NCBI GenBank assembly: GCA_030144965.1
Contig: JAMPUU010000018.1
Coordinates: 62,001 to 126,000 of the forward strand
Reading direction: 5' to 3'
Length of the DNA: 64,000 nucleotides
Source of the DNA: Nitrospira sp. BO4
GTDB taxonomy: Bacteria > Nitrospirota > Nitrospiria > Nitrospirales > Nitrospiraceae
Position 1 is the first letter of the stretch. Each line of letters begins with the position of its first letter. Of the stretch, positions 36,409 through 49,344 are shown in pieces. The notes beneath the pieces are model-generated. The model was not told where the DNA came from. It worked only from the letters and a program-made list of their open reading frames with translations, and did no database searches. The translations under genes and the position numbers were made by a program.

Positions 36409-36719
36409 GTGGTTCCCTGCAAGCCATCACCGATCGAGAGTTCGATCAGGTCGTTGAGGCGAGTGCAGTCCCCGTGTTGGTGGAATTTTGGAAGCCAGGC
36501 TGCAGCCATTGCCGTGCTCTTATGACGGAGCTCGAACTGTTGCAAGACGATATGGGATCGAAACTCGTCATCCTCACCATGAATGTGGAGGAGAATCACC
36601 AGATCCCCGCAGAATTGGAAATCTCATCGCTCCCCGCGCTGGCGCTATATGACCAAGGACAATTCGTAAGATTTATTGGAGGACTAGGGAAGAAGGATGA
36701 GATCGTGAAACAGGTCTAG
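36405..36719 (+). CDS. Thioredoxin-like protein
   Basis: A 104-aa thioredoxin fold with the active motif written CSHC in FWKPGCSHCRALMTEL, and the cis-Pro loop in ISSLPALALY. CSHC instead of CGPC suggests a different redox potential. The GTG start overlaps the stop of the esterase gene and implies coupling. The reaction and partner are unknown; a cytoplasmic disulfide reductase is most likely. Confidence 0.85.
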   Translation: MSGSLQAITDREFDQVVEASAVPVLVEFWKPGCSHCRALMTELELLQDDMGSKLVILTMNVEENHQIPAELEISSLPALALYDQGQFVRFIGGLGKKDEIVKQV

Positions 36720-36919
36720 TTAGCAGTCGGCTGGTGACGATTGCGCATACGGACAGAGGTGGTTGAATTCTGTCATCGGGACCTGCCAATCGGAGCAAGC
36801 CATACCCCTTCATTCTTGAATTTTCCACTATAACTCAATGCGCAGTCATCTCGTGACGAGGTGTCGCCAGGCTTGAATCCAAATGCACAAGTGGAAGTCC
36901 TATCCTACGGAATCTCCCT

Positions 36920-38077
36920 TCAAAGGCGGCCTCTGAGGAGAAGCGACCCGTACTTGCACACGAGCCGCATCGGGCGAATGCCATAATACAGAAAAGCCAA
37001 GCGCCGCGGCAGAGGCACAAGCTGCCGATCAAGGTTGCAAGGGGCAAAAGCATTATAGATGTAGCGTAAGTAGTAGGGGTGGAGTTTATCTCGGAGGCGT
37101 TCGCGCACATGCCAGCGGAACGTCTCAACTGTCCGCCGCTCCGCGACCACAGGTGCCTCGTTCTGAAACAGTTGCCGCTGCGCGGCTTCAACCAGCCGCC
37201 CAATCGAGGGATGAGACCGTATCGCACGGAGACATGCTTGAGGCATCCTGACTCCGAGGAGGTCGTTGACCAGGGCCAGGCTAAACAGGAGCATGCGTTC
37301 ACCGCCCCCTTGACGTGCGTAGAACAGGGACTGGGCCAGGTCGAGAGAGGGAGAAGCGCGCAACAGGGCGGCCATATCACAGAGTTTCACCAGCTGAAAA
37401 TAGCGACTCCCGGCGTCTTTACTTATCTGGATGGCGAGCATGAGGAGGGTATCTTCCGGCGACAGCGAGGGCACCTTTGTGCCTAGCAAGACGGTATGAT
37501 GACGGCGTTCCCAGAGGTGCTCAAATTGGAGGGGAGAAGGAAACTCCCGCGAGGTCATCCGCTTGTGCAAATCAACCGCAACCGTCCCATTACTATCAAC
37601 ATAGGTCGACTCGTTTTCGAATGCTTCAATGAGACGATAGGCGCTGGTACTGAGAAGGCGCTGCGCACGCTGATAGTCGCGTTCGTGGACCAAAATATCC
37701 AAATCGAAAAATTCTCGTAGGGCAAGATTTCCGTAGATAGAGGCCGCCAAGATAGGCCCTTTGTAGGGGAGGGCAGGAATGACGTGGGCCTCAAGCAACT
37801 TGAGAAGTTTGAGGAGTCCATCTGTTAGAAACAGGGTACGGGCGGCGTTGGCGCGGGAGTGGTATCGGAGTTCTGCCAGAATGGTCGGTGGCGCGTCCTC
37901 GGGGGAAACTGCACGCAGGCTGCGAGACAAGAGCGGCATGACTCCATGCCGGCCGGCGGTCTGGAGCAGAGAGGCCCAGTCGAGGTCAGTGCGGAGCAGC
38001 ACCTTGATCCGCTCAGCTCCTGCCGTATCAATGGAGGTATCTGCGCAGCAGAGCAGGAGTTCGACTTCAGGGCGCAT
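36920..38077 (-). CDS. Nucleotidyltransferase-family protein of the RiPP operon (N protein)
   Basis: A 385-aa protein of the large nucleotidyltransferase family (NTP_transf_5) seen in some lasso peptide clusters beside kinases. The typical stretch YKGPILAASIYGNLALREFFDLDILV contains the DxD-type metal motif (DLDILV). The His/Arg-rich region KRMTSREF and the C-terminal basic helix are also typical. In lasso clusters the partner kinase and nucleotidyltransferase tailor the peptide; the same role here is inference. It starts nine bases after the PqqD-like gene stop and is last in the operon. Confidence 0.85.
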   Translation of the reverse strand: MRPEVELLLCCADTSIDTAGAERIKVLLRTDLDWASLLQTAGRHGVMPLLSRSLRAVSPEDAPPTILAELRYHSRANAARTLFLTDGLLKLLKLLEAHVIPALPYKGPILAASIYGNLALREFFDLDILVHERDYQRAQRLLSTSAYRLIEAFENESTYVDSNGTVAVDLHKRMTSREFPSPLQFEHLWERRHHTVLLGTKVPSLSPEDTLLMLAIQISKDAGSRYFQLVKLCDMAALLRASPSLDLAQSLFYARQGGGERMLLFSLALVNDLLGVRMPQACLRAIRSHPSIGRLVEAAQRQLFQNEAPVVAERRTVETFRWHVRERLRDKLHPYYLRYIYNAFAPCNLDRQLVPLPRRLAFLYYGIRPMRLVCKYGSLLLRGRL

Positions 38078-38085
38078 GGAGCTGT

Positions 38086-38370
38086 CTATGATGTGCCTGG
38101 ATGGACCAGGCCTTCCTGCTGCAACTCGTCCACAAAGGCCAGCAGCACGGGCATCGCTTCTTCATCCGTGACGGCATAGTCGTTCTGCAAGGCCTGGACG
38201 ATTTCCTGCGCGCAGCGACTCTGTTGCAACAGTTCCCAGATGCGGGTTCCGCTTTCATTCAACGTATAGTAACGTTTGGTGTCGAGATGTAGCAGAACCG
38301 CTTCGCTCTCATCGAGCCGCGTGAATACCAGGCTGGGATGGGGATGCAGGACAGTTTCAGGCGCGAGCAT
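38086..38370 (-). CDS. PqqD-like RiPP recognition element (B1 protein)
   Basis: A 94-aa PqqD-fold protein. The strand-strand-helix pattern (LVFTRLDESEAVLLHLDTKRYYTLNESGTRIWELL) matches the RiPP recognition element that grips the leader peptide. In lasso pathways this B1 protein binds the YxxPxL motif of the precursor. It overlaps the radical SAM gene stop by 14 bases and has a strong GAGGAGG. It likely presents the precursor to the B2 peptidase, kinase or radical SAM enzyme. Confidence 0.88.
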   Translation of the reverse strand: MLAPETVLHPHPSLVFTRLDESEAVLLHLDTKRYYTLNESGTRIWELLQQSRCAQEIVQALQNDYAVTDEEAMPVLLAFVDELQQEGLVHPGTS

Positions 38371-39433
38371 GGGATGCCTCCTCAGTGGGTGCGACAGACC
38401 GTCGCGACGGTGGCTCCAGAATATGGGTAAGCTGGGGCACTTTCTGATAGTGCAACAGACAGTGAGTGCAGAGAAATTGCTCTGCTTCCGTGGGAGAGGA
38501 CGTAGCGAGCCGTTCCAGTCTTTCCAGATTGATCTGCGCGATTTTAGTGATCAGGCGGCGATGGGCCTCGACAAAACTCACCCCGTGTAAATCCGCCAAA
38601 ACATCCGTCTCGGACGTGCCCCCGCGATAATTCGAGAGGGTGCAGCAGGCGGTCAGGTTGCCACGGTAATCGATGTTGAACTCCTGCATCTGCAGCTGCG
38701 AGCACTGGCCAAAGCGCGAAGCGGTATAGTGGTCACCCGCCAGGAGGATGGGCATCGTAAACATCTGCTGCAAGGCGGCGATATCCGTCTCCACGTTCCG
38801 TCGTTCACGGGCGTTCAGCACCAGATTGGCGGCGAGGGCGTCGTGGGTAGGCTGACAATGTCCATAGCCTAATGCTGCACAGCCCAGGCGGCTGGCCAGG
38901 ATGGCCATCGCTTCCAGTTCGTCCCGATTGGCATGGGTGACCACCATGTTGAGCTGAACGGGAACGCCCTGCACATGACACAAACTGACCGCCTGCATCA
39001 GCCGGCGAAATGACCCGGGTTGACGCCTCAGGGTATCGTGCGTAGTCTCACTGGCGCCATCGAGGCTCAAAGAGACACGTTCGAGCGAACTTTTCCAGGC
39101 TTGGATCTTCGCGAACGTCTGGGAAAAGTTCCAGCCATTGGTCACAAATGTGAAGGAGTACCGGGCGCATGCCACCAGCTCGACAATCTCGGCAAACTGG
39201 GGGTGCAGAGTCGGCTCCCCTCCGGTGAAAGCTATAAGGTTGACGGGTTGGTACGCCTGCACCTCCGTCAGCACCTTGTTCACGATCGTCAACGGCAGGT
39301 CGTGATGCGGCCCGTCCTCCGACCTGATACAGTGCACACAGCCGAAGTTACAGCGGTTGGTCAACTCGAAGATGAGCTTAATCCCCGATGATGTAGCCGC
39401 CCTCTGTATCAGTGGTGTGGTCCGCGGGTCCAC
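38357..39433 (-). CDS. Radical SAM enzyme with SPASM-like C-terminal domain
   Basis: A 358-aa radical SAM protein. The cluster motif CNFGCVHC gives C28, C32 and C35, followed by a GGEPT motif. C-terminal Cys groups (QCSQL..., TACCTLSN and CTHC) indicate auxiliary iron-sulfur clusters, as in SPASM or twitch RiPP maturases. The GTG at 39433 follows AGGAGG. Such enzymes install C-C, thioether or epimer modifications in peptides; the modification here is not predictable. It lies between the kinase and recognition genes. Confidence 0.9.
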   Translation of the reverse strand: MDPRTTPLIQRAATSSGIKLIFELTNRCNFGCVHCIRSEDGPHHDLPLTIVNKVLTEVQAYQPVNLIAFTGGEPTLHPQFAEIVELVACARYSFTFVTNGWNFSQTFAKIQAWKSSLERVSLSLDGASETTHDTLRRQPGSFRRLMQAVSLCHVQGVPVQLNMVVTHANRDELEAMAILASRLGCAALGYGHCQPTHDALAANLVLNARERRNVETDIAALQQMFTMPILLAGDHYTASRFGQCSQLQMQEFNIDYRGNLTACCTLSNYRGGTSETDVLADLHGVSFVEAHRRLITKIAQINLERLERLATSSPTEAEQFLCTHCLLHYQKVPQLTHILEPPSRRSVAPTEEASHARA

Positions 39434-39449
39434 GCCTTTCCTCCTTTTC

Positions 39450-40493
39450 CTATGTGCAACGCGCTTGCTGTTGTATCTCTTCCAGGAGAGGGGCAATGCG
39501 CCGCGGGTTGCGGGCCAGGTCCTGACCAGCCAGAAGTCGATAGTGCCGACTCTGGCGTACTAGACGCACCAGAACGTCCAGATGGCCAGATGCTTGCTGG
39601 GGATCTATCGCCAGCAGGGCACTCTGCTGGATCAGCCGTAAGAGCGCATCGGCTTTCCCGATGGGGACCAGCTCGCTTTCCGGCTGGGCCACGATGGTAG
39701 GGAACAAGAGCAGGTCCGGTTGGCAGGTGTCACGGATCTGCGCTGGGTACAACGCTCGCACCTCGAGGCGCTGTTTCGTGTCCTCACGGAGCAGGCAGGT
39801 CTGCCAGTGATCGCTAGTGTCGGGGAACAGCGCCGCAGCCTCAGGGGCCAGGTACAGGTCCTGTCGAAGCGGCAAAACATCCACGTGCTCTCCATGAGAG
39901 CGACGGAAAACAACGGCATCATCAGCGAGGTAGTTCCAGCCTGCTTGGACGAGGCCGAGCGTCAGGGTCGACTTGCCGCTGCCACTATCAGCGACGATCA
40001 GGCAACCGCCATCCTCGTTGGCGAGACACGCGGCGTGCGCCGCATACCATCCCTGTCTGCGCAGCAAGAGGAGCAAGCTGTAGAGGAACAAATCTACGGG
40101 CAGTGTTGGCGCGGTTAACGACGCAGCCAGCAATGTTCCGATACCTTGACCTACAGCAGGATCAAGCTTGACGAGCCACTCGCGATCACCCAGGTAGAGT
40201 TCTGTGTTGACCTGCCAAACCTGCAGGCCATGGTGCTGTGCTACGGGACAGGCAGCGGCAGGGAGAGAGACTTGAGAATCCTGCGTGCGCCACATCATGG
40301 TCACCGGACACTCCACAGAGTCGCGAGGGATAGGGGCCAGACCGAAGTAGGCGCAGAGCGCTTGTACCCGCGCTCCGATCTGAGCCGCGTCCCAGCCGAT
40401 CAGAACCCCGGTGCCGTGAACCTCGTAAGGGGCATAGACCATGGACTCGGCACATCGCATCAAGGAAGGTCCTTCCCACGGCAGAGGAATCAT
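39450..40493 (-). CDS. HprK-like kinase of the RiPP operon
   Basis: A 347-aa protein related to HPr kinase and to the kinases of phosphorylated lasso peptides. The P-loop ADSGSGKST is at residues 168-176, with LADDAVVF following. Lasso kinases phosphorylate a C-terminal Ser of the precursor; the precursor here has Ser54 and several Thr. The ATG at 40493 shares one base with the precursor stop (TGATG); a GTG at 40496 overlaps by four bases. Either way it is translationally coupled to the precursor. Confidence 0.85.
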   Translation of the reverse strand: MIPLPWEGPSLMRCAESMVYAPYEVHGTGVLIGWDAAQIGARVQALCAYFGLAPIPRDSVECPVTMMWRTQDSQVSLPAAACPVAQHHGLQVWQVNTELYLGDREWLVKLDPAVGQGIGTLLAASLTAPTLPVDLFLYSLLLLLRRQGWYAAHAACLANEDGGCLIVADSGSGKSTLTLGLVQAGWNYLADDAVVFRRSHGEHVDVLPLRQDLYLAPEAAALFPDTSDHWQTCLLREDTKQRLEVRALYPAQIRDTCQPDLLLFPTIVAQPESELVPIGKADALLRLIQQSALLAIDPQQASGHLDVLVRLVRQSRHYRLLAGQDLARNPRRIAPLLEEIQQQARCT

Positions 40494-40675
40494 CACCGAG
40501 GGCGTGTGTGGGGTGAAAACGTTCCGAAAAAGGCCGCCGTCACGGCCGGCAGCGTGGCGTGTCGTGTCAGGATTGGCCGCACGAAGGGCTTCTTCCGTGT
40601 CGGCTCATTCTCAGACTGGTCTACATGACGGTCTTGGCGTTGCAGGGTATCTCCGTTCGAAATCTTGGTATCCAT
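40493..40675 (-). CDS. RiPP precursor peptide, 60 aa, lasso-like leader
   Basis: A short gene with an AGAAGGAGA site just before its ATG at 40675. Residues 31-36 read FVRPIL, matching the YxxPxL leader motif bound by B1 proteins. T46 sits where lasso leaders have their penultimate Thr, so cleavage after A47 would release A48-R60. After E24 there is no Asp or Glu, so this core cannot form the lasso isopeptide ring. The leader is hydrophilic; the last 14 residues contain GTFSP and HTRPR. It overlaps the B2 gene end by 55 bases. Confidence 0.8.
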   Translation of the reverse strand: MDTKISNGDTLQRQDRHVDQSENEPTRKKPFVRPILTRHATLPAVTAAFFGTFSPHTRPR

Positions 40676-41145
40676 CGTAATCTCCTTCTCTGGTGAACGT
40701 TGTCCATAGGGAACGTATACACAGTGGTAAATGCACGCCGTGGGTCGCCCTTCTCGCCAAAAGGTTGGTCTGCCAGCTCGATCCAACAATGGCCTTCGAG
40801 GGCCTCGTCTCGCTTGGCCACTCCAAAATGCAGAGTAACAGGAGCGCCCCATTGGCGGAAAAAGTGAAACAGCACCAGCGACTGCTTCATGCAGTTGGGG
40901 CGGAGCAGGCCGATGCGCTGTTGCAGGAGCCGCTGGATAAGAAACAGCAGACGCTCAGGTTTCAGTGGTGGGAGCCGCGTCGGCATCGTGTTCGCCCCGA
41001 ACAAGGTGACCAGGGCAGGCAGCGAAAGCACCCGCTGCAAGACGGGGAGTGCCACCAGCAGGCCCACGCTCGACATCAGCAGCCGGAGCTCGTGCCGGCG
41101 GAGCGTAGCGAGCTTCCTATACACAGCTTCCAACCGTGCGGGCAT
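40621..41145 (-). CDS. Lasso peptide biosynthesis B2-type leader peptidase
   Basis: A 174-aa transglutaminase-fold cysteine protease of the lasso B2 family. The triad is C85 (RPNCMKQSL), H119 (EGHCWIEL) and D126 (ADQPFG). In lasso pathways it removes the leader after the penultimate Thr, with B1. Two hydrophobic helices precede the core. The start at 41145 has AGAGGAAGA upstream; the frame extends to 41223. Its last 18 codons overlap the precursor start in a different frame. Confidence 0.9.
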   Translation of the reverse strand: MPARLEAVYRKLATLRRHELRLLMSSVGLLVALPVLQRVLSLPALVTLFGANTMPTRLPPLKPERLLFLIQRLLQQRIGLLRPNCMKQSLVLFHFFRQWGAPVTLHFGVAKRDEALEGHCWIELADQPFGEKGDPRRAFTTVYTFPMDNVHQRRRLRWIPRFRTEIPCNAKTVM

Positions 41146-41312
41146 ACCGTCTTCCTCTCTCTGTCGCGAAGACGTTGATCGCGCAGGGGACCTGATGGTA
41201 GCGCGCTCCATCGCGCATGTCAAAACACCTTATGAACGCCCTACTCACGCTCGAGGTTTTCACGCATCCTGCGTACGACTGGTGACGTATCCTTCCTTCT
41301 ACCGTAATCGTG

Positions 41313-41798
41313 TCAGTGTTGCGATGGGTCAAACGTAAATTGAAACGGCCCGGTTGCGGGAAGATCGTCGAGCTGTGTCAATTTAGTCTGGCCCTTGGGT
41401 AACACATAGACTTTGGCAATCCGATGCGGTGGAGCGTTTGGGCCCTGCGCCGTGGCAATCGCCACATTCGGGCTTAACTGTTTGAGGGCTTTGTCCAGCG
41501 GCATTGGGCTCAAGTGGATGGTGATCCGCTCGTCCACACCGGAATACATCATGACGATGGGGATCTTCGTGCGTTGTTCGATCTCAGCCAGGATGGCCGC
41601 CAGCGACGCCTCGTAGGCGTCCAGCGAGAGCTCGCGTTCTGTCACCGTCAGGCGAAACGTGCCCTCGGCAAGGAACGAGGTCGCCCCTGGTGGCGTAGAC
41701 TGCGCGGCCGCAAGGCCGGTCAGCAGTAGCCCTCCCAAGATCAGTCCCATAACATGGACGGTCATCCTCGAAGACCAGGAGAGTTGCATGTGTGGCAT
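41313..41798 (-). CDS. Secreted STN-domain (secretin/TonB short domain) protein
   Basis: A 161-aa protein with a signal peptide (MQLSWSSRM... ending GLAAAQS) and an STN-like domain in the rest: LDAYEASLAAILAEIEQRTKIPIVM and TIHLSPMPLDKALKQL match that fold. STN domains are periplasmic modules of secretins, TonB receptors and FecR-type signalling. Standing alone, it may bind a peptide or couple to a secretin. The ATG at 41798 has AAGGAGA. Placed directly before the B2 gene (167-base gap, no terminator seen), it may belong to the RiPP operon. Confidence 0.75.
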   Translation of the reverse strand: MPHMQLSWSSRMTVHVMGLILGGLLLTGLAAAQSTPPGATSFLAEGTFRLTVTERELSLDAYEASLAAILAEIEQRTKIPIVMMYSGVDERITIHLSPMPLDKALKQLSPNVAIATAQGPNAPPHRIAKVYVLPKGQTKLTQLDDLPATGPFQFTFDPSQH

Positions 41799-41882
41799 GG
41801 TCAGTTTCTCCTTTGCAAAGAACCTGGTGATTGCCTCTGTGCCTTTTGAGCATAGAGCTGACACCAAGCGCTGAAGCTCCTT

Positions 41883-43487
41883 CTATCGCGTGCCCAACAC
41901 ATCTACGAAGAACGTGAATTGATCAAACGTCTTCAAGCAGAGCGTCACCGGTAGCCCCACATGTTCCTTGGCCGTCAGCACGCCATCGGTATACTGCCCG
42001 CTCGGGCTGAACGTGACAGTCGCGCCATCCCCGCCCAACCCGCCATCAGCGTTGAGCACGAGGTTGCCCTTGGTGAGGGTGGCCACCTCGGCGACCACGT
42101 GGGACAGCGGCGGACTGCCGGGCTTGTTGGCCAGGTCCGCGGTGAAGCGAAATTTCCCGACAGAGCCGGCGGGGCATCCGGTCGTGTCCCGACTGGTTTG
42201 ATACGTGGCAGGGAGCGGCGTGAATGTCACGAGGCTGTTGAGCGTCTGCAGCTGAGCGGAATTGGCCTCCACGGCGCCTATGTCACAGAGGGCAGTGCCG
42301 TTGCGGTCCCCATCGGCCGGGCGGAAGAACCCCCGCTGGTCTGTCCCAAGCGGATTGCCCCCGGCGCCAGTGCAATTGGCCGTCGGAATGGCGTCAATCG
42401 CGGGGCTTTTGCCCGTGCACCCAGCAGGCGTGCCGGATCCGGTGCAGAGTGCGAGGGTCTTGGTCGGCCCGCCGTTGTCCTTCAACCCGGCAGGATCAAG
42501 CCGAGGGTCAATGTTGGATTTGTCGCCCGGGCCGGTGAGCCCACAACTGCCCGCTTGGTCCAGGTTATAGCCCAGGGAGGTTACGGGGCCGGAGCACCCA
42601 TCGGCAATGAGGCTGCTGTGCAGCCTGAGGGTCTCGCTATTAAAAATGCCGGTGCCGTTGTCGCTGACCGTACTGTGGCTGAGCGTCAGGGCGCCCTCAT
42701 TACATATGCCACTGACAAAGGCGCAAAAGCGCCCGCAACCGTTGCCGCTAACCGTGCTGTTGCTGAGCGTCAGAGTGCCCCCAGGCGCATTATAGATGGC
42801 GCCACCAGCAGCTTCCGTCCTAGGATGCCCATCAATGACGTTGCCGCTAACCGTGCTGGTGCTGATCGTCATGGTGCCGCGGTTAGCAATGCCGGAGCCG
42901 CAAACGCCGAAGCCGCAGAAAATGTTGCGGTTATCGCGGATCGTGCTGTTGCTGATGGTTGTGGTGCCACTGTTGCTGATAGCTCCATCACCAGATTCAG
43001 TGAAATGGCCGCTGACCGTGCTGTGGCTGAGGGTCAGGGCACCACTGTTGCCGATGCCGCTCCCGTCGGCGACTGTGAGGTGCGTCAAGGTCAGCACTCC
43101 GGCTGGGCCCACACCAATCCTCCCGCCGCTTGTGGTAATTCCCCCGCCGCCGTCGATGGTCAGGCCTCCTACGTTGGTAATGCTCAGGCTTGAATCCAGA
43201 CTGATTGTCCCGCTCACGGTGAACGTAATGGTGTCGGCGCCATGGCCGGCGGCGCAATCGGTGGAGCCGGAGTGGCTATCCTGCTCGGCATTGAGGATGG
43301 CTTCACGCAGGGTACAGACCCCATCCCCCGAGACCACCGTATCCTCCAAACTGTTGACCACAATCGTGGCCGCCCAAGATCTTTCGGGCCAGGCCAGCGA
43401 ACAGAACCCCGTTGCCAGGGCTACACAAAGTATGACGCCCGGATCAGTCCACCACGGCTTTACCGCTGATTTCGTGTCCTGCGTCAT
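41883..43487 (-). CDS. CSLREA-domain, right-handed beta-helix secreted protein, copy 1
   Basis: A 534-aa secreted protein. A signal peptide ends near WAATIVVNS; the CSLREA-type motif GVCTLREAILNAE follows. The centre is a run of about 20-residue repeats (LTLSHSTVSGHF, TISTSTVSGNV), typical of right-handed beta-helix surface proteins. The C-terminal 200 residues are a conserved module shared with the two upstream paralogues, ending FFVDVLGTR. It is 84 bases upstream of the STN gene. Adhesion or surface role is inference. Confidence 0.82.
   Translation of the reverse strand: MTQDTKSAVKPWWTDPGVILCVALATGFCSLAWPERSWAATIVVNSLEDTVVSGDGVCTLREAILNAEQDSHSGSTDCAAGHGADTITFTVSGTISLDSSLSITNVGGLTIDGGGGITTSGGRIGVGPAGVLTLTHLTVADGSGIGNSGALTLSHSTVSGHFTESGDGAISNSGTTTISNSTIRDNRNIFCGFGVCGSGIANRGTMTISTSTVSGNVIDGHPRTEAAGGAIYNAPGGTLTLSNSTVSGNGCGRFCAFVSGICNEGALTLSHSTVSDNGTGIFNSETLRLHSSLIADGCSGPVTSLGYNLDQAGSCGLTGPGDKSNIDPRLDPAGLKDNGGPTKTLALCTGSGTPAGCTGKSPAIDAIPTANCTGAGGNPLGTDQRGFFRPADGDRNGTALCDIGAVEANSAQLQTLNSLVTFTPLPATYQTSRDTTGCPAGSVGKFRFTADLANKPGSPPLSHVVAEVATLTKGNLVLNADGGLGGDGATVTFSPSGQYTDGVLTAKEHVGLPVTLCLKTFDQFTFFVDVLGTR
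41928..42545 (-). repeat. Paralogue module, direct repeat copy 1 (618 bp)
   Basis: This stretch aligns without gaps to 43603-44220; by eye I count four single-base differences, all transitions. It encodes the shared C-terminal module of the CSLREA proteins. Confidence 0.9.
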
Positions 43488-43557
43488 CGATCCCTCCGTC
43501 CGTTACTACGAATGCAGCGCCTCCCGGTCACTCCCGCTGCCCCACGGTTCTCCGATC

Positions 43558-45240
43558 CTACCGCGTGCCCAGCACATTCACGAAGAACGTGAAGGGGGAG
43601 AACGTCTTCAAGCAGAGCGTCACCGGTAGCCCCACATGCTCCTTGGCCGTCAGCACACCATCGGCATACTGCCCGCTCGGGCTGAACGTGACAGTCGCGC
43701 CATCCCCGCCCAACCCGCCATCAGCGTTGAGCACGAGGTTGCCCTTGGTGAGGGTGGCCACCTCGGCGACCACGTGGGACAGCGGCGGACTGCCGGGCTT
43801 GTTGGCCAGGTCCGCGGTGAAGCGAAATTTCCCGACAGAGCCGGCGGGGCATCCGGTCGTGTCCCGACTGGTTTGATACGTGGCAGGGAGCGGCGTGAAT
43901 GTCACGAGGCTGTTGAGCGTCTGCAGCTGAGCGGAATTGGCCTCCACGGCGCCTATGTCACAGAGGGCAGTGCCGTTGCGGTCCCCATCGGCCGGGCGGA
44001 AGAACCCCCGCTGGTCTGTCCCAAGCGGATTGCCCCCGGCGCCAGTGCAATTGGCCGTCGGAATGGCGTCAATCGCGGGGCTTTTGCCCGTGCACCCAGC
44101 AGGCGTGCCGGATCCGGTGCAGAGTGCGAGGGTCTTGGTCGGCCCGCCGTTGTCCTTCAACCCGGCAGGATCAAGCCGAGGGTCAATGTTGGATTTGTCG
44201 CCCGGGCCGGTAAGCCCACAGGTGCCGATCTTGTCTAGGTTATAGCCTAGAGAGGTGATGGGGATGCCCGGGGGACCGAAGAGGTTGGCTGCGGCGCACC
44301 CATCGGCAAGGAGGCTAGTGTGCAGCTTCAGGGTCCCGCTATTAAAGATGCTACCGGTGGCGTTGTTACTGACCGTGCTGTGGCTGAGCGTCAGGACCCC
44401 CTCATTATAAATGCCCGTGAGAGTAACTGTAATGGGGTCGAGCGTATCGCTCACGGTGCTGTTATTGATGGTCAGGATCCCCTCCGGCCCATTATGGATG
44501 GCGCCCCCACCACCAAAGTGGTCTTCCCTACCACATCTGCAGAACCCCTGGTTACCGTTAATCGTGCTGGTGCTGATCGTCATCGTGCCATGGTTATCAA
44601 TGATGCCGCCATGGTGATCGAAAGCGGGGAGTGCGGCCGTGTTATCCCTTACCGTGCTGTGGCTGATGGTCAGGGTGCCCCCAGTCGCATTATAGATGGC
44701 GCCATCCTGTTCAGATTCAAAGAAAGGAGAGGAAGGGTCTAAGCCGAAGTTGTTGCTGACCGTGCAGTTGTCGAGGGTCATGGTGCCAGCGTTGGAGATT
44801 CCGCTACTGTTGGCAAATGTGAAATTCTTCAATGTCAGCACGCCGGCAGGGCCCACACTGATCCCAGAGCCAAAGCCGCTGATGGTAATTTTTCCACCGC
44901 CGTCGATGATGAGGCCCCCGGCACTGGTCATGGTCAGATCTGAACTGCTCAGGGCATTGATCGTCCCGCTCAGGCTGAAGGTAATGGTGTCGGCGCCATG
45001 GCCGGCAGCGCAGTCGGTGGAACCGGAGTGATTATCGTGCTCGGCGTTGAGGACGGCTTCGCGCAGGGTACAGACCCCATTGTTGGACACCGTATCGTCT
45101 AAGCTGTTCACCACGATGGTGGCCGCCATTCCAGTACCGGGCAGAGCCAGCGAACAGAACCCCGTTGCCAGGGTTACACAGAACATGACGCCCAGATCAA
45201 TCCACCACGGCTTTACTGCTGATTTCATGTCCTGCGTCAT
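43558..45240 (-). CDS. CSLREA-domain, right-handed beta-helix secreted protein, copy 2
   Basis: A 560-aa paralogue. It shares MTQD.KSAVKPWW and the signal peptide with copy 1, and the CSLREA motif GVCTLREAVLNAE. The beta-helix section has its own sequence (SSGISNAGTMTLDNCTVSNN), but from about residue 350 to 545 it is almost identical to copy 1. The last residues differ (SPFTFFVNVLGTR). The start at 45240 has TGGAGGAA. Function is inferred only from architecture. Confidence 0.82.
   Translation of the reverse strand: MTQDMKSAVKPWWIDLGVMFCVTLATGFCSLALPGTGMAATIVVNSLDDTVSNNGVCTLREAVLNAEHDNHSGSTDCAAGHGADTITFSLSGTINALSSSDLTMTSAGGLIIDGGGKITISGFGSGISVGPAGVLTLKNFTFANSSGISNAGTMTLDNCTVSNNFGLDPSSPFFESEQDGAIYNATGGTLTISHSTVRDNTAALPAFDHHGGIIDNHGTMTISTSTINGNQGFCRCGREDHFGGGGAIHNGPEGILTINNSTVSDTLDPITVTLTGIYNEGVLTLSHSTVSNNATGSIFNSGTLKLHTSLLADGCAAANLFGPPGIPITSLGYNLDKIGTCGLTGPGDKSNIDPRLDPAGLKDNGGPTKTLALCTGSGTPAGCTGKSPAIDAIPTANCTGAGGNPLGTDQRGFFRPADGDRNGTALCDIGAVEANSAQLQTLNSLVTFTPLPATYQTSRDTTGCPAGSVGKFRFTADLANKPGSPPLSHVVAEVATLTKGNLVLNADGGLGGDGATVTFSPSGQYADGVLTAKEHVGLPVTLCLKTFSPFTFFVNVLGTR
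43603..44220 (-). repeat. Paralogue module, direct repeat copy 2 (618 bp)
   Basis: Near-identical partner of 41928-42545. The flanking bases diverge abruptly at both ends, as expected after gene conversion or recent duplication. Confidence 0.9.
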
Positions 45241-45309
45241 TGATTCCTCCATTCGTCACTATGCATGCAGGCCCTTCTGTTCGCCCGCGCAGGTTTATGT
45301 GCCCTCTTT

Positions 45310-46923
45310 TTAGTGCGTGCCTAGCACATCCACAAAGAATGTGAATTGATCGAATGTCTTCAAGCAGAGCGTCACCGGTAGCCCCACATGTTCCTTGGCG
45401 CTCAGCACGCCATCGGCATACTGCCCGTTCGGGCTGAACGTAATAGTCGCTCCATCCCCGCCCAATCCGCCATCGGCGTTCAACACCAAGTTCCCCTTGG
45501 TCAAGGTGGCCACCTCAGCCACCAGGTGTGACAGCGGCGGACTCCCGGGCTTGTTGGTTAAGTCCGCGGTGAAGCGAAATTTTCCGACAGAGCCGGCGGG
45601 GCATCCCGTCGTATCCCGACTCGTTTGATACGTGGCAGGGAGCGGGGTGAACGTCACGAGGCTGTTGAGCGTCTGCAGAGGCGAAGACGTGGCCTCAAAG
45701 GCTCCCATGTCACAGAGCACGGTGCCGTTGCGGTCCCCATCGGCCGGGCGGAAGAAACCCCGCTGGTCCACGCCAAGTGGATTGCCCCCCGCGCCAGTGC
45801 AGTTGGCAGTTGGGATGGCGTCAATCGCGGGGCTTTTGCCCGTGCACCCAGCGGGCGTGCCGGATCCGGTGCAGAGCGCGAGGGTCTTGGTCGGCCCACC
45901 ATTGTCCTTCAACCCGGCAGGATCGAGCCGAGGGTCAATGTTGGATTTGTCGCCCGTGGCGGTGAGGCCACAGGTGCCGATTTTGTCTAGGTTGTAGCCC
46001 AGGGAGGTGATAGGTCCAGAGCACCCATCGGCGAGCAGGCTGGTGCTCAGCTTCAGGGTCCCGTTATTAAAAATGCCGGACGTCACGGCGGGAAAGGAGG
46101 GAGGGAGGGAGCCGTTGTCGCTGACCGTGCTGTAGCTGAGCGTCAGGGTGTTTCCAATCGCATTATGGATGGCGCCACCAGTAGCATCGAATCGAGGGCC
46201 CCCGGTAATGCCGTTGCCGCTGATCGTGCTGTGGCTGATGGCCATCGTGCCACTGTTATCAATGCCGCCGCCGAAGGGAGGAATGAACTCACTCCCCATA
46301 TGCTTGTCAACGCCATTGCCGCTGATCGTGCTGTGGCTGATGGTCATCGTGCCACTGTTGGAGATACCACCCTCAAAAAAGCAGAACAACTCGTTTCCAT
46401 TGACAATAGCGGCGCCATTGCTGTCGACTCTGCTGTCGCTGATGGTCAGGATGCCACCGTTGGAGATACCACAACTTTCGGTCACCGTGAGGTGTGCCAG
46501 GGTCAGCACTCCGGCAGGGTCCACAGTAATCTTACCGGGTCTATCAGACCGCTGTGCATCACTGCCGCTGATGATAATTTTCCCTCCGCCGTCGATGGTC
46601 AGGCCCTTGGGGCTGGTAATGGTTAGGGCGGACGGGACCCTAATCGTCCCGTTCACGGTGAAGGCGATGGTATCGGCGCCACTGCCAGCGGCGCAGTCGG
46701 TGGAACCCGAGTGGTTATCCCCTTCGGCGTTGAGGATTGCTTCGCGCAGGGTACAGACCCCATTGTTGGACATCGTATCGTATAAGCTGTTCACCACAAT
46801 GGTGGCCGCTCCAGCTCGACTGGGCAAAACCATCGAGCAGAGCCCCGTCACCAGGGCTACACCGAGCGTCACGCCCCAGGTACTCCTCAACGTCACCCCT
46901 ACTGGGTTCACGTCACGCATCAT
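45310..46923 (-). CDS. CSLREA-domain, right-handed beta-helix secreted protein, copy 3
   Basis: A 537-aa paralogue, first of the three in transcription order. It has the CSLREA motif GVCTLREAILNAE, then beta-helix repeats (MAISHSTISGNGITG, MTISHSTISGNGVD). Its C-terminal module is like copies 1 and 2 but more diverged at the DNA level. The start at 46923 has GGAAGGA. The gap to copy 2 is 69 bases, so the three may form one transcription unit leading to the STN and RiPP genes. Confidence 0.82.
   Translation of the reverse strand: MMRDVNPVGVTLRSTWGVTLGVALVTGLCSMVLPSRAGAATIVVNSLYDTMSNNGVCTLREAILNAEGDNHSGSTDCAAGSGADTIAFTVNGTIRVPSALTITSPKGLTIDGGGKIIISGSDAQRSDRPGKITVDPAGVLTLAHLTVTESCGISNGGILTISDSRVDSNGAAIVNGNELFCFFEGGISNSGTMTISHSTISGNGVDKHMGSEFIPPFGGGIDNSGTMAISHSTISGNGITGGPRFDATGGAIHNAIGNTLTLSYSTVSDNGSLPPSFPAVTSGIFNNGTLKLSTSLLADGCSGPITSLGYNLDKIGTCGLTATGDKSNIDPRLDPAGLKDNGGPTKTLALCTGSGTPAGCTGKSPAIDAIPTANCTGAGGNPLGVDQRGFFRPADGDRNGTVLCDMGAFEATSSPLQTLNSLVTFTPLPATYQTSRDTTGCPAGSVGKFRFTADLTNKPGSPPLSHLVAEVATLTKGNLVLNADGGLGGDGATITFSPNGQYADGVLSAKEHVGLPVTLCLKTFDQFTFFVDVLGTH
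45358..45972 (-). repeat. Paralogue module, direct repeat copy 3 (615 bp, more diverged)
   Basis: It aligns without gaps to 41931-42545 but with clearly more substitutions scattered along its length than between copies 1 and 2. Confidence 0.85.
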
Positions 46924-47796
46924 AGATCCTTCCGTCAGTCTCTGAGAGTTAGTCGCGAACGCCTGGTGTTCCTGTCGTGCTGGCCACGACACTCAAGCAG
47001 AGCTAGCCTGGTTCGTTGCGAGCCATTCAATCTACCCGTCGCACACTGGCGCACTCACAAACCACCTAACGGTTACCGAAGGACACTGTGAGTCATTAGG
47101 GCCAGTTCTGTTCCAAGAGAGTCAGCGCGACTGAATACGTATTATTCCTCCATGCTCTTTAATTGTTCGGATATCGAAGCGACAACAGAAAGGCCAAGTT
47201 CAGGCTTCAGGTTGGGGAGATATGCCCCAGCATTTGTAAAACCACATGGACAATTGTCAGCAATAATTCATGTTCGTGCGATCTCCGGCCTTCTCCGCAG
47301 TCGGATGTTGCAATAAGACGTTGTTACGATTGGCCGTCCTGCCATGCCTCGAGATTCAGGTGACAACGATGGTCGCGCTAGAAAAAGCGAGTGTGTAGGT
47401 GAGCCGTTGAGGGGGAGATGACCTTGGGATTCCAGTGCGTGGGTTCGGCGAATTGGTCAACATTCCTGGATCCTCGTTCGTCCAAGCTGCCGGCCTTCAG
47501 CAGGGTCATACGGAAGAGGATATGGGCACTAATCGGCTCGTCGTGTGAGATCATCTCTGAATCCCGACCCGTCAGTGCCTCACGAGACTCTTGCTCTCTC
47601 GCTCTATAATGGATGCGACTCTAACTCACAGGAGAGACCTTCGTGGCGGGGCTATCAGCGTAAGCGAGGACGTCGAAGTTGAGACTTTCAGGCCAGGCAT
47701 TGACTGCCTGCAGGGGGGCGAAGTCTTATAGTGAGAGTGTGAGAACGATCAATTCAGCTGATGCCGCGGCGATGGGCGTCCTATGCCAGCCGGTGC
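46924..47796. other. Non-coding stretch of about 870 bases
   Basis: No frame here has both a credible start and protein-like content. It probably holds the promoter for the CSLREA/RiPP genes. A TATAAT at 47605-47610 on the plus strand is followed by AGGAGAGACC and a GTG that opens only six codons, perhaps a decayed gene. The zwf gene ends at its right edge. Confidence 0.4.
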
Positions 47797-49344
47797 CTAC
47801 AGCTCCCGCCAGGCGCGGCCGTCGTTTTGAATCAACCGGTCGGCTTCCACCGGCCCCCATGTTCCGGCTTGATATTCGGGGAGCCAGCGTTGTCCCGACT
47901 TGTCCCAGGCTTCGAGAATCTGGGTGATCCACGCCCAGGACGCTTCCACGGCATCGCGCCGCATAAAGCGGGACGCGTCTCCCGCCATCACGTCGAGTAA
48001 AAGGCGCTCATACGCTTCAGGAGACGGACGACCGAATACTTCTCCATACTTGAAGTCCATTTCCACTGGATGGGTCTGAGCACGGGTACCGGGGACACGG
48101 GAGACGATGCGGAGCGTGAGCCCTTCTTCCGGTTGAATTTTCAAGGCTAAGACATTCGGAGCTTGAGGAGTCTGTCCACCGGCATTAAAGAGGATCTGCG
48201 GGATCTCCTTAAATTGGACGGCAACTTCGCTGGCCCGCTGTGGCAAGGCTTTTCCGGTTCGTAAGTAAAACGGCACACCGGACCACCGCCAGTTCTCGAC
48301 GAAACATTTCACCGCCACGTAGGTTTCGGTGATGGAGTTCGGGTTGACGCCCTTCTCACGTCGATAGCCGGGGACTGGTGTCCCATGCGCCGTCCCCTCG
48401 GTGTATTGGGCCCGCACAGTGAACTTTTCCACGTCTTTCGCCGTGATCGGCCTCAAGCAGCGGAGGACTTCCATTTTGGCGTTTCGCACCACGTTGGGAT
48501 CCAGGGAGTAGGGCGGCTCCATGGCGACCAGGCAGAGGAGTTGAAGCAAATGATTCTGGATCATGTCCCGGAGAGCGCCCGCCTCCTCATAGTACGTCGC
48601 TCTGGTTCCGACACCTTCGGCTTCGCTCACGGTAATTTGAACGTGATCGACGTATTTATGATTCCAGATCGGCTCGAAAATGCTGTTGGCGAACCGTACG
48701 ACCATGAGATTCTGAACCGTCTCTTTGCCCAGATAATGATCGATCCGGAAAATCTGCGATTCATCGAAGACACGGCCTGTGACCTCGTTGATGGCCTGTG
48801 CCGACACCAGGTCGCGCCCGACCGGTTTTTCGACGATGATGCGCGTATAGGGGGAACGAGCCCCGGGAGATCCCGCTAGACCGGAACGGGACAAGCCTTC
48901 GCAGACGGATGTAAAGGAACTGGGGGGGATGCTGAGATAGAAAATCCGATTCCCGGGCAGTTGAAACGTCCGCTCGAGTTCTTCCACGCGCTCCTTCAGT
49001 CTCACATAGGTCTGATCGTCGTCGTTTCCCCCTGCCAGATAAAACAGATGCTGAGCAAAGGCCTTCCACGTCTCGTCGATCAAGGCCTGCCGGGAATGTT
49101 TGACGACGCCATCACGGACGCTGGCTCGGAACTCTTCATCGCTCATCGAAGTACGGCCCAAGCCGAGCACCACGTAGTTCGACGGGAGCAACCCGTCGAG
49201 GAGGAGGTTATAGACCGCGGGAATCAGGCGTCGCCGAGCGAGGTCGCCGGAGCCACCGAAAATGACCAAGGTACATGGTTCGACTGGCGGCAGCGGTTCC
49301 TGAGAGGGGCTGATATCAATCCGTTGACTGTTCGTCGATGCCAT
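47797..49344 (-). CDS. zwf: Glucose-6-phosphate 1-dehydrogenase
   Basis: First step of the oxidative pentose phosphate pathway: glucose 6-phosphate to 6-phosphogluconolactone with NADP or NAD. The 515-aa protein has the Rossmann motif FGGSGDLARRRLIPAVY, the active-site RIDHYLGKE, and PFYLRTGKAL. The ATG at 49344 has GAGGAGG six bases upstream. It lies 26 bases after gnd in the same direction, giving a compact pentose phosphate unit. Confidence 0.97.
   Translation of the reverse strand: MASTNSQRIDISPSQEPLPPVEPCTLVIFGGSGDLARRRLIPAVYNLLLDGLLPSNYVVLGLGRTSMSDEEFRASVRDGVVKHSRQALIDETWKAFAQHLFYLAGGNDDDQTYVRLKERVEELERTFQLPGNRIFYLSIPPSSFTSVCEGLSRSGLAGSPGARSPYTRIIVEKPVGRDLVSAQAINEVTGRVFDESQIFRIDHYLGKETVQNLMVVRFANSIFEPIWNHKYVDHVQITVSEAEGVGTRATYYEEAGALRDMIQNHLLQLLCLVAMEPPYSLDPNVVRNAKMEVLRCLRPITAKDVEKFTVRAQYTEGTAHGTPVPGYRREKGVNPNSITETYVAVKCFVENWRWSGVPFYLRTGKALPQRASEVAVQFKEIPQILFNAGGQTPQAPNVLALKIQPEEGLTLRIVSRVPGTRAQTHPVEMDFKYGEVFGRPSPEAYERLLLDVMAGDASRFMRRDAVEASWAWITQILEAWDKSGQRWLPEYQAGTWGPVEADRLIQNDGRAWREL

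Follow-up and report, generated by a model that had tools for sequence, protein, structure and literature searches.

What does a peptide become when it carries a lasso-type leader and its core holds no residue able to close a lasso ring? The question is raised by a small gene in a 64,000-bp stretch of contig JAMPUU010000018.1 of Nitrospira sp. BO4 (referred to as the window in the rest of the paper), for which a preliminary description had claimed this very combination. The 60-aa ORF lies on the minus strand at 40493-40675 and translates to MDTKISNGDTLQRQDRHVDQSENEPTRKKPFVRPILTRHATLPAVTAAFFGTFSPHTRPR, followed by a stop codon; by eye, AAGGAG is seen just 5′ of its ATG. The translation bears the description out, with FVRPIL at residues 31-36, Thr at position 46, E24 as the last acidic residue and neither Asp nor Glu in A48-R60. 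The gene has the following features.

40493-40675, minus strand: RiPP precursor of 60 aa (translation, orthologues, profile family and purifying selection)
40568-40585, minus strand: leader motif FVRPIL, F(−17) P(−14) L(−12) (same spacing in 24 of 24 precursors; lasso rule YxxPxL)
40496-40534, minus strand: predicted core A48-R60, AFFGTFSPHTRPR (T46 at −2 invariant, F50 and F53 in 24 of 24, cleavage site placed by the lasso rule), with the conserved FFGTF block at 40517-40531

The precursor ORF is real, beyond chance. In three further genomes of the genus, orthologues with 73-75% identity sit at the corresponding place in the operon, and so does one with 44% identity in another family. Over leader codons 19-47, comparison with three orthologues gave a dN of 0.08-0.09 and a dS of 0.43-0.51, indicating purifying selection. 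When 235 genomes of the order were searched with the precursor, 29 passed an E value of 0.1; among the frames read, which left out most of the weak matches, the convincing ones were the four orthologues and a second, different precursor type. A plasmid search with the precursor gave no match.

The family of FF-type precursors comprises 24 distinct loci or copies, and every one of them has exactly the same spacing, F/Y(−17) P(−14) L(−12) T(−2); the corresponding lasso leader rule is given as YxxPxL at −17 to −12 in the accessible part of PMC10368454. The family core follows the pattern x(0-5)-[FL]F[GNS]xF, mostly then x-P, and the residues after it are free; the core of L055 stops right after SFFGTF. 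The conserved block predicted earlier, FxxPxL...T..FFGTFSP, thus holds in a refined form: F50 and F53 are kept in 24 of 24 precursors, F49 in 23 (Leu in L172), P55 in 22 and G51 in 20 (N or S in the rest), and position 52 is variable (T, S, V, G, A, P or I), with no conserved hydroxyl there among the 24. The core had also been thought available for radical chemistry or phosphorylation. The operon does contain a radical SAM and a kinase gene; the more specific idea of a phosphorylated Thr52 is weakened, and phosphorylation of a conserved Thr/Ser at position 52 was rejected as a general rule because several relatives have V, G, A, P or I.

The claim that no residue could close a ring extends to the whole FF-type family, in which Asp or Glu at core positions 7-9 was found in 0 of 24 precursors. 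Three have an acid elsewhere in the core, at position 1 in L039 and at the last residue in L052 (10) and L149 (14), and none of the 24 cores contains Cys. The island of the window holds no second precursor; relatives L050 and L149 have two or three, likewise acid-free at core 7-9. These extra precursors (L050:1958-2279, L050:10287-10481 and L149:8047-8241) lie beside the main one and include a partial copy with core AFFNVFYP, one with an AMPFFGTFVP core and a divergent one with a SIPFSPIPN core. Glu at core 7 appears only in the divergent L056 cassette of a gammaproteobacterial bin (core FFFQAVEAGSL; precursor profile E 0.007), where a scan of the four large flanking ORFs revealed no Asn-synthase-type cyclase. 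The divergent cassettes L051, L056 and L150 keep the leader spacing with different cores, indicating that the leader rule is more general than FFxxF.

Triceptides carry three-residue cyclophanes on Aromatic-X-X, with a Cβ at the third residue. F50-G51-T52 fits this rule in the window; the third position is occupied by Gly in L057 and by Pro or Ala in other relatives. An F-G-T cyclophane is compatible with the window and gains no support from conservation across precursors.

Downstream and upstream of the precursor, the minus strand encodes, in gene order, an STN protein, B2, the precursor, an HPr-kinase-like protein, a radical SAM enzyme, PqqD/B1 and NTP_transf_5. The island and the enzymes of this cassette are as follows.

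36742-47796, no strand: island of 11,055 bp that contains the complete system (blastn comparison of the window with L265 of genome G125, and junction)
36920-38077, minus strand: NTP_transf_5 nucleotidyltransferase (PF14907, E 9e-57)
38086-38370, minus strand: PqqD-like recognition protein, B1 (PF05402, E 1.7e-19; best solved relative TbiB1, E 1.7e-8)
38357-39496, minus strand: radical SAM peptide maturase with an auxiliary Fe-S (SPASM/twitch-like) domain (PF04055, E 3.1e-22)
39450-40496, minus strand: HPr-kinase-related P-loop kinase (PF07475, 30.2 bits, under the cut-off of 33.3)
40621-41223, minus strand: B2 leader peptidase, Transglut_core3 / lasso_biosyn_B2 (PF13471, E 1.4e-14; NF033537, 54.6 bits, cut-off 33)

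The catalytic residues of these enzymes are conserved. The active-site Cys and His of B2 are intact in 20 of 20 aligned sequences; GK, DD, His and Lys of the kinase are invariant (23/23), and the KG and DxD motif residues of NTP_transf_5 are kept in all 16 aligned. In the radical SAM enzyme, all 17 sequences keep CX3CX2C together with C246, G260, C265, C266, C324 and C327 (C-x13-G-x4-CC...CxxC). The structural model of this enzyme (pLDDT 83) best matched SuiB (Z 25.9), then SkfB (Z 23.8), BlsE and anSME (Z 22.7), viperins also scoring above 20; most of the top matches are peptide- or protein-modifying enzymes with an auxiliary domain. The closest predicted fold is thus that of a C-C crosslinking enzyme, SuiB, at 12% identity over the structural alignment. 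Defence models returned generic viperin-type radical SAM similarity only. No Asn-synthetase-like lasso cyclase was detected in the 11-kb island or among the ORFs scanned in relatives, and the island contains no transporter or peptide exporter. We consider it very probable that the cassette is a conserved, non-lasso RiPP system with a radical SAM enzyme and lasso-type leader handling. The acid-free core, the conserved FF[G/N/S]xF block and the missing cyclase together point to chemistry on the Phe-rich block rather than a lactam.

Phosphorylated and phosphoglycosylated lasso clusters (paeninodin, pseudomycoidin and bsf of Bradymonas), as presented in the available portions of PMC8498205 and PMC10368454, have in common with the cassette [FY]xxPxL at −17 to −12, B1, B2, an HPr-kinase homologue and a nucleotidyltransferase. 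Thr at −2 is also common to both, whereas bsf has Ile there (same portions of PMC8498205 and PMC10368454). In contrast to these clusters, the cassette lacks a cyclase, a ring acid and a transporter, and has a radical SAM enzyme, a conserved FFxxF core and a linked family of exported proteins. With the radical SAM RiPPs streptide (SuiB) and the sactipeptide of SkfB it shares the predicted maturase fold with an auxiliary domain, and it differs from them in its separate PqqD, lasso-type leader, B2 and Cys-free core; sactipeptides and ranthipeptides use a core Cys for their thioether, whereas the 24 cores have none. The SynChlorMet and HPr-rel-A systems of NCBIfam combine, by their model names, an HPr-kinase-like protein with a PqqD-like chaperone, and SynChlorMet a radical SAM enzyme as well. 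The kinase scored 48 bits for TIGR04352 (cut-off 200) and PqqD 21.5 for TIGR04353 (cut-off 35) of HPr-rel-A; for SynChlorMet the scores were 19.4 bits for ScmC (cut-off 125), 27.6 for ScmD (cut-off 100) and 68.2 and 82.7 for ScmE/F (cut-off 400). The accessible text of the RRE-Finder study (PMC7470986) already counts about 300 lasso-model RREs next to radical SAM enzymes and mentions that there may be uncharacterised classes. Our search of the open literature found no paper describing this core, the C-terminal tail discussed below or the cassette.

The same-species genome G125 lacks exactly 36742-47796, its flanks being 99.7-99.8% identical to those of the window and joined with 15 bp between them. 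The G+C content of the island is little different (0.59, against 0.56-0.57), and no direct repeat of at least 8 bases links its ends. Besides the cassette it encodes the STN protein and three exported proteins; the rest of the island yielded no assignable gene. About 800 bases at its upstream edge (46993-47796) have no gene assigned and probably hold the island promoter; an Rfam search of 36500-48000 gave no match. The exported proteins are the following.

41313-41867, minus strand: exported STN-domain (secretin/PilQ-type) protein, likely start 41798, ending FQFTFDPSQH
41883-43487, minus strand: exported CSLREA/choice-of-anchor Q protein with a C-terminal VDVLG domain (TIGR04214, NF041518)
43558-45252, minus strand: second exported VDVLG-domain protein (domain 43564-43929)
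45310-46992, minus strand: third exported VDVLG-domain protein (domain 45316-45681)

Export of the VDVLG proteins was judged by eye from Sec-type N-termini. What the three share with cassette neighbours in other phyla is a C-terminal, Ig-like domain of about 120 residues that ends in FxFxVDVLG, for which there is no Pfam or NCBIfam model. It was modelled with confidence as a beta-sandwich (pLDDT 89.7) whose fold matches are unspecific, VIA-align hits being spread over many Ig-like folds with Z of at most 7.4. A donor-strand, pilin-like fold was set aside: the best Foldseek matches were the pilus subunits CfaB (E 1.2e-3) and FimG, but the TM scores were about 0.35-0.40 and VIA-align was unspecific. 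The N-terminal parts of VDVLG proteins are unrelated, among them a CSLREA beta-helix, an M6 metalloprotease with CBM9, and VWA with PKD. G499 has 21 domain matches and G539 has 15, most on contigs other than that of the cassette, and the genome of the window has an additional VDVLG-domain and STN pair on another contig (L262); the island-free relative G125 gave no match to the domain. In G491 (L052) the domain is internal rather than terminal. The STN protein matches PilQ (4ar0, E 3e-4) by profile. At the divergent locus, L056:127-4169 contains an STN-like exported protein upstream (42.9 bits; the highest of 1,800 decoys reached 4.4), and a large upstream protein has a weak VDVLG-like end (19.8 bits, best decoy 8.1).

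The same enzyme set is present in Nitrospirota and also in anammox Planctomycetota, in bins of deltaproteobacteria and in one from the Trueperaceae. A scan of species genomes, most of the sampled ones metagenome bins, with the radical SAM alignment retained 80 loci, 16 of them strong; 64 (L062-L125) were dropped by their weak scores as unrelated radical SAM families. L061 and L178-L183 were inspected and dropped since the full cassette is missing, and the radical SAM match of L151 is weak. Of 395 Nitrospirota genomes, 8 have the enzyme; the anammox class has it in 10 of 75, and the phylum of G487 in 6 of 395, where the full cassette was present in the fetched region only for G487 itself. L171 and L172 (G527) are equal-score radical SAM matches near both ends of one contig, the remaining cassette lying near L172 only. 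L061:2194-7647, from a Paceibacterota bin, has five tandem radical SAM genes; L183:3246-13134 (G901), with three radical SAM hits (two genes), two PqqD-like hits, a weak kinase hit and an NTP_transf_5 hit, may be a relative of the cassette from a different subfamily. The genus of the window also has a second type of cassette without a cyclase (L044:3227-8803, L043:12701-17027, L041 and L042), with PqqD, an HPr-kinase-like protein, NTP_transf_5, B2, an ABC transporter and a precursor of the form [YA]xRPxLTKHxLLRDIT, whose core in L044 reads AYSGGG...C...C. PqqD lies beyond the L043 region, L041 and L042 show the precursor only, and neither a radical SAM gene nor a cyclase was seen alongside.

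The cassette and the VDVLG domain largely occur together. In the order, the domain was found in 5 of 231 genomes, exactly the five that have the radical SAM enzyme among 235 (the two draws differ slightly); in the 75 genomes of the anammox class each was found in 10 and both in 9. Cassette genomes thus bear the domain, on otherwise unrelated exported proteins, in 5 of 5 and 9 of 10 cases (Fisher p 2e-10 and 8e-10, values that ignore kinship and are inflated by relatedness). Among the genomes with one partner only, G516 has the domain and, beside a domain gene, a precursor at a contig end, so that the assembly probably truncated its cassette. The real exception is G513, with the cassette present and the domain absent genome-wide at E 1e-10. 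No domain was seen at L057, L059, L176 and L060 (which ends at a contig edge); at L057 (Thermodesulfovibrionia) and L059 (Trueperaceae) the large neighbouring proteins are domain-free. The association is strong, not universal; physical linkage on a mobile island could explain part of it, and the unlinked domain copies argue against its explaining all. Sorting systems such as PEP-CTERM/exosortase offer a comparison: there too, N-terminally diverse exported proteins share a C-terminal region and a dedicated, co-occurring enzyme set. Unlike those systems, ours has a folded Ig-like domain instead of a short transmembrane signal, and RiPP enzymes with a peptide instead of a sortase.

In six anammox genomes the exported proteins also carry a copy of the core. 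Each of the 12 complete domain proteins there terminates in a basic linker and FFGRFxP, once FFRRFxP, followed by 0, 1 or 9 residues; the motif copies the precursor core FFGTFxP. A thirteenth domain protein is fragmentary. The Nitrospira VDVLG proteins have no such tail, which, being confined to one anammox lineage, may represent a single evolutionary event. A genome-wide sorting function for FFGRFxP was rejected, as the pattern matched only 10 times in the 75 genomes: at six places in five cassette genomes (two in G489 and one each in G488, G493, G527 and G528), in the G540 precursor and at three chance sites (fragments of 51, 22 and 22 residues). G516 was missed by the pattern because its tails carry one extra residue. 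STN proteins end in FxFxFDPS in 10 of 10 cases in the family alignment of STN-bearing lineages, a looser likeness to the core that is suggestive only. Of the ten anammox-class genomes with the domain, five (G491, G499, G516, G539 and G540) have the full-length STN family, other STN matches in the class being partial and weak; strict mutual exclusion of STN protein and tail was rejected, as G516 has both.

A functional link between the product of the cassette and the exported proteins is likely, and the peptide most likely serves the VDVLG proteins, with attachment, cofactor or signal as possible modes. From the exact −17/−14/−12/−2 spacing and the intact catalytic residues we infer that PqqD/B1 would bind the leader and B2 would cleave it after T46-A47, the way lasso systems do. 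The radical SAM enzyme would act earlier, on the invariant FFxxF of the uncleaved precursor, most likely forming a C-C crosslink, or another bond on Phe. By analogy with paeninodin- and pseudomycoidin-type lasso clusters, the HPr-kinase homologue would phosphorylate a core Ser or Thr and NTP_transf_5 would cap the phosphate. The 13-residue core released by B2 would not be lactam-cyclised, acid and cyclase both being absent. Its destination would be the exported proteins with a C-terminal VDVLG domain, along with the STN protein. Because the C-terminus of the exported proteins, or of the STN protein, can bear a comparable F-rich, Pro-containing strand, we propose that the modified peptide docks on or joins these proteins and so completes their assembly at the cell surface; this docking or joining step is tentative. 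Taken as a whole, with the docking role understood loosely, we put the probability of this explanation at about 0.5.

The alternative that survives best, which we hold to be possible at perhaps one chance in a handful, is a free RiPP signal or antibiotic: a modified FFxxF peptide that leaves the cell, with the STN and VDVLG proteins as receptor, uptake or immunity functions. TonB/STN receptors serve some lasso peptides. The STN profile matches the secretin PilQ, and a kinase with NTP_transf_5 is a known set of tailoring enzymes of secreted lasso peptides in the accessible sections of PMC8498205. However, the island has no transporter, the core block is nearly invariant across phyla, unlike that of typical antibiotics, VDVLG matches that number 15 to 21 in a genome and have unrelated N-termini are unlike immunity genes, and the core is copied on the tails of exported proteins.

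A peptide-derived redox cofactor, PQQ- or mycofactocin-like and used by the exported proteins, is unlikely. It would accord with the short, highly conserved core, which in L055 ends right after SFFGTF, and with the pairing of PqqD and a radical SAM enzyme, but the residues past FFxxF vary and lengths differ; cofactor pathways need no kinase and NTP_transf_5, and the exported proteins do not form one oxidoreductase class but comprise proteases, beta-helices, VWA and propeller proteins. Still less probable is that the exported tails are the true substrates and the small peptide an adaptor or decoy bringing the enzymes to the FFGxFxP end: the 12 complete proteins ending in FF[GR]RFxP and the FxFxFDPS ends of 10 of 10 STN proteins would suit it, yet the tails have no leader motif for B1, the Nitrospira exported proteins are tail-free, and modification would presumably have to precede Sec export. 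An ordinary lasso peptide with its cyclase encoded elsewhere, or a degenerate lasso cluster, is very improbable: counterparts of the leader, B1, B2, kinase and NTP_transf_5 all occur in lasso systems and divergent L056 has Glu at core 7, but 24 of 24 cores are acid-free at 7-9, no cyclase was found in the island or the scanned ORFs of relatives, and purifying selection with intact enzymes argues against decay.

We thus return to a peptide made for the exported VDVLG proteins. In its fullest form, which we regard as possible though doubtful, it would be a new surface-protein maturation system, in which a radical SAM-modified, phosphate-tailored RiPP, derived from a short copy of the C-terminal strand of the exported proteins, would be handed over or coupled to the Ig-like domains at the C-termini of many unrelated exported proteins, in nitrifiers, anammox organisms and further bacteria. 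With its cleanly empty site and few parts, the system lends itself to direct testing. In organisms with a central place in the nitrogen cycle, its gene content uncouples lasso-type leader recognition and cleavage from lasso cyclisation and couples them to radical chemistry. Should the VDVLG link prove functional, the RiPP would finish or anchor exported proteins instead of acting as a free small molecule, a use of RiPPs that, to our knowledge, is undescribed.
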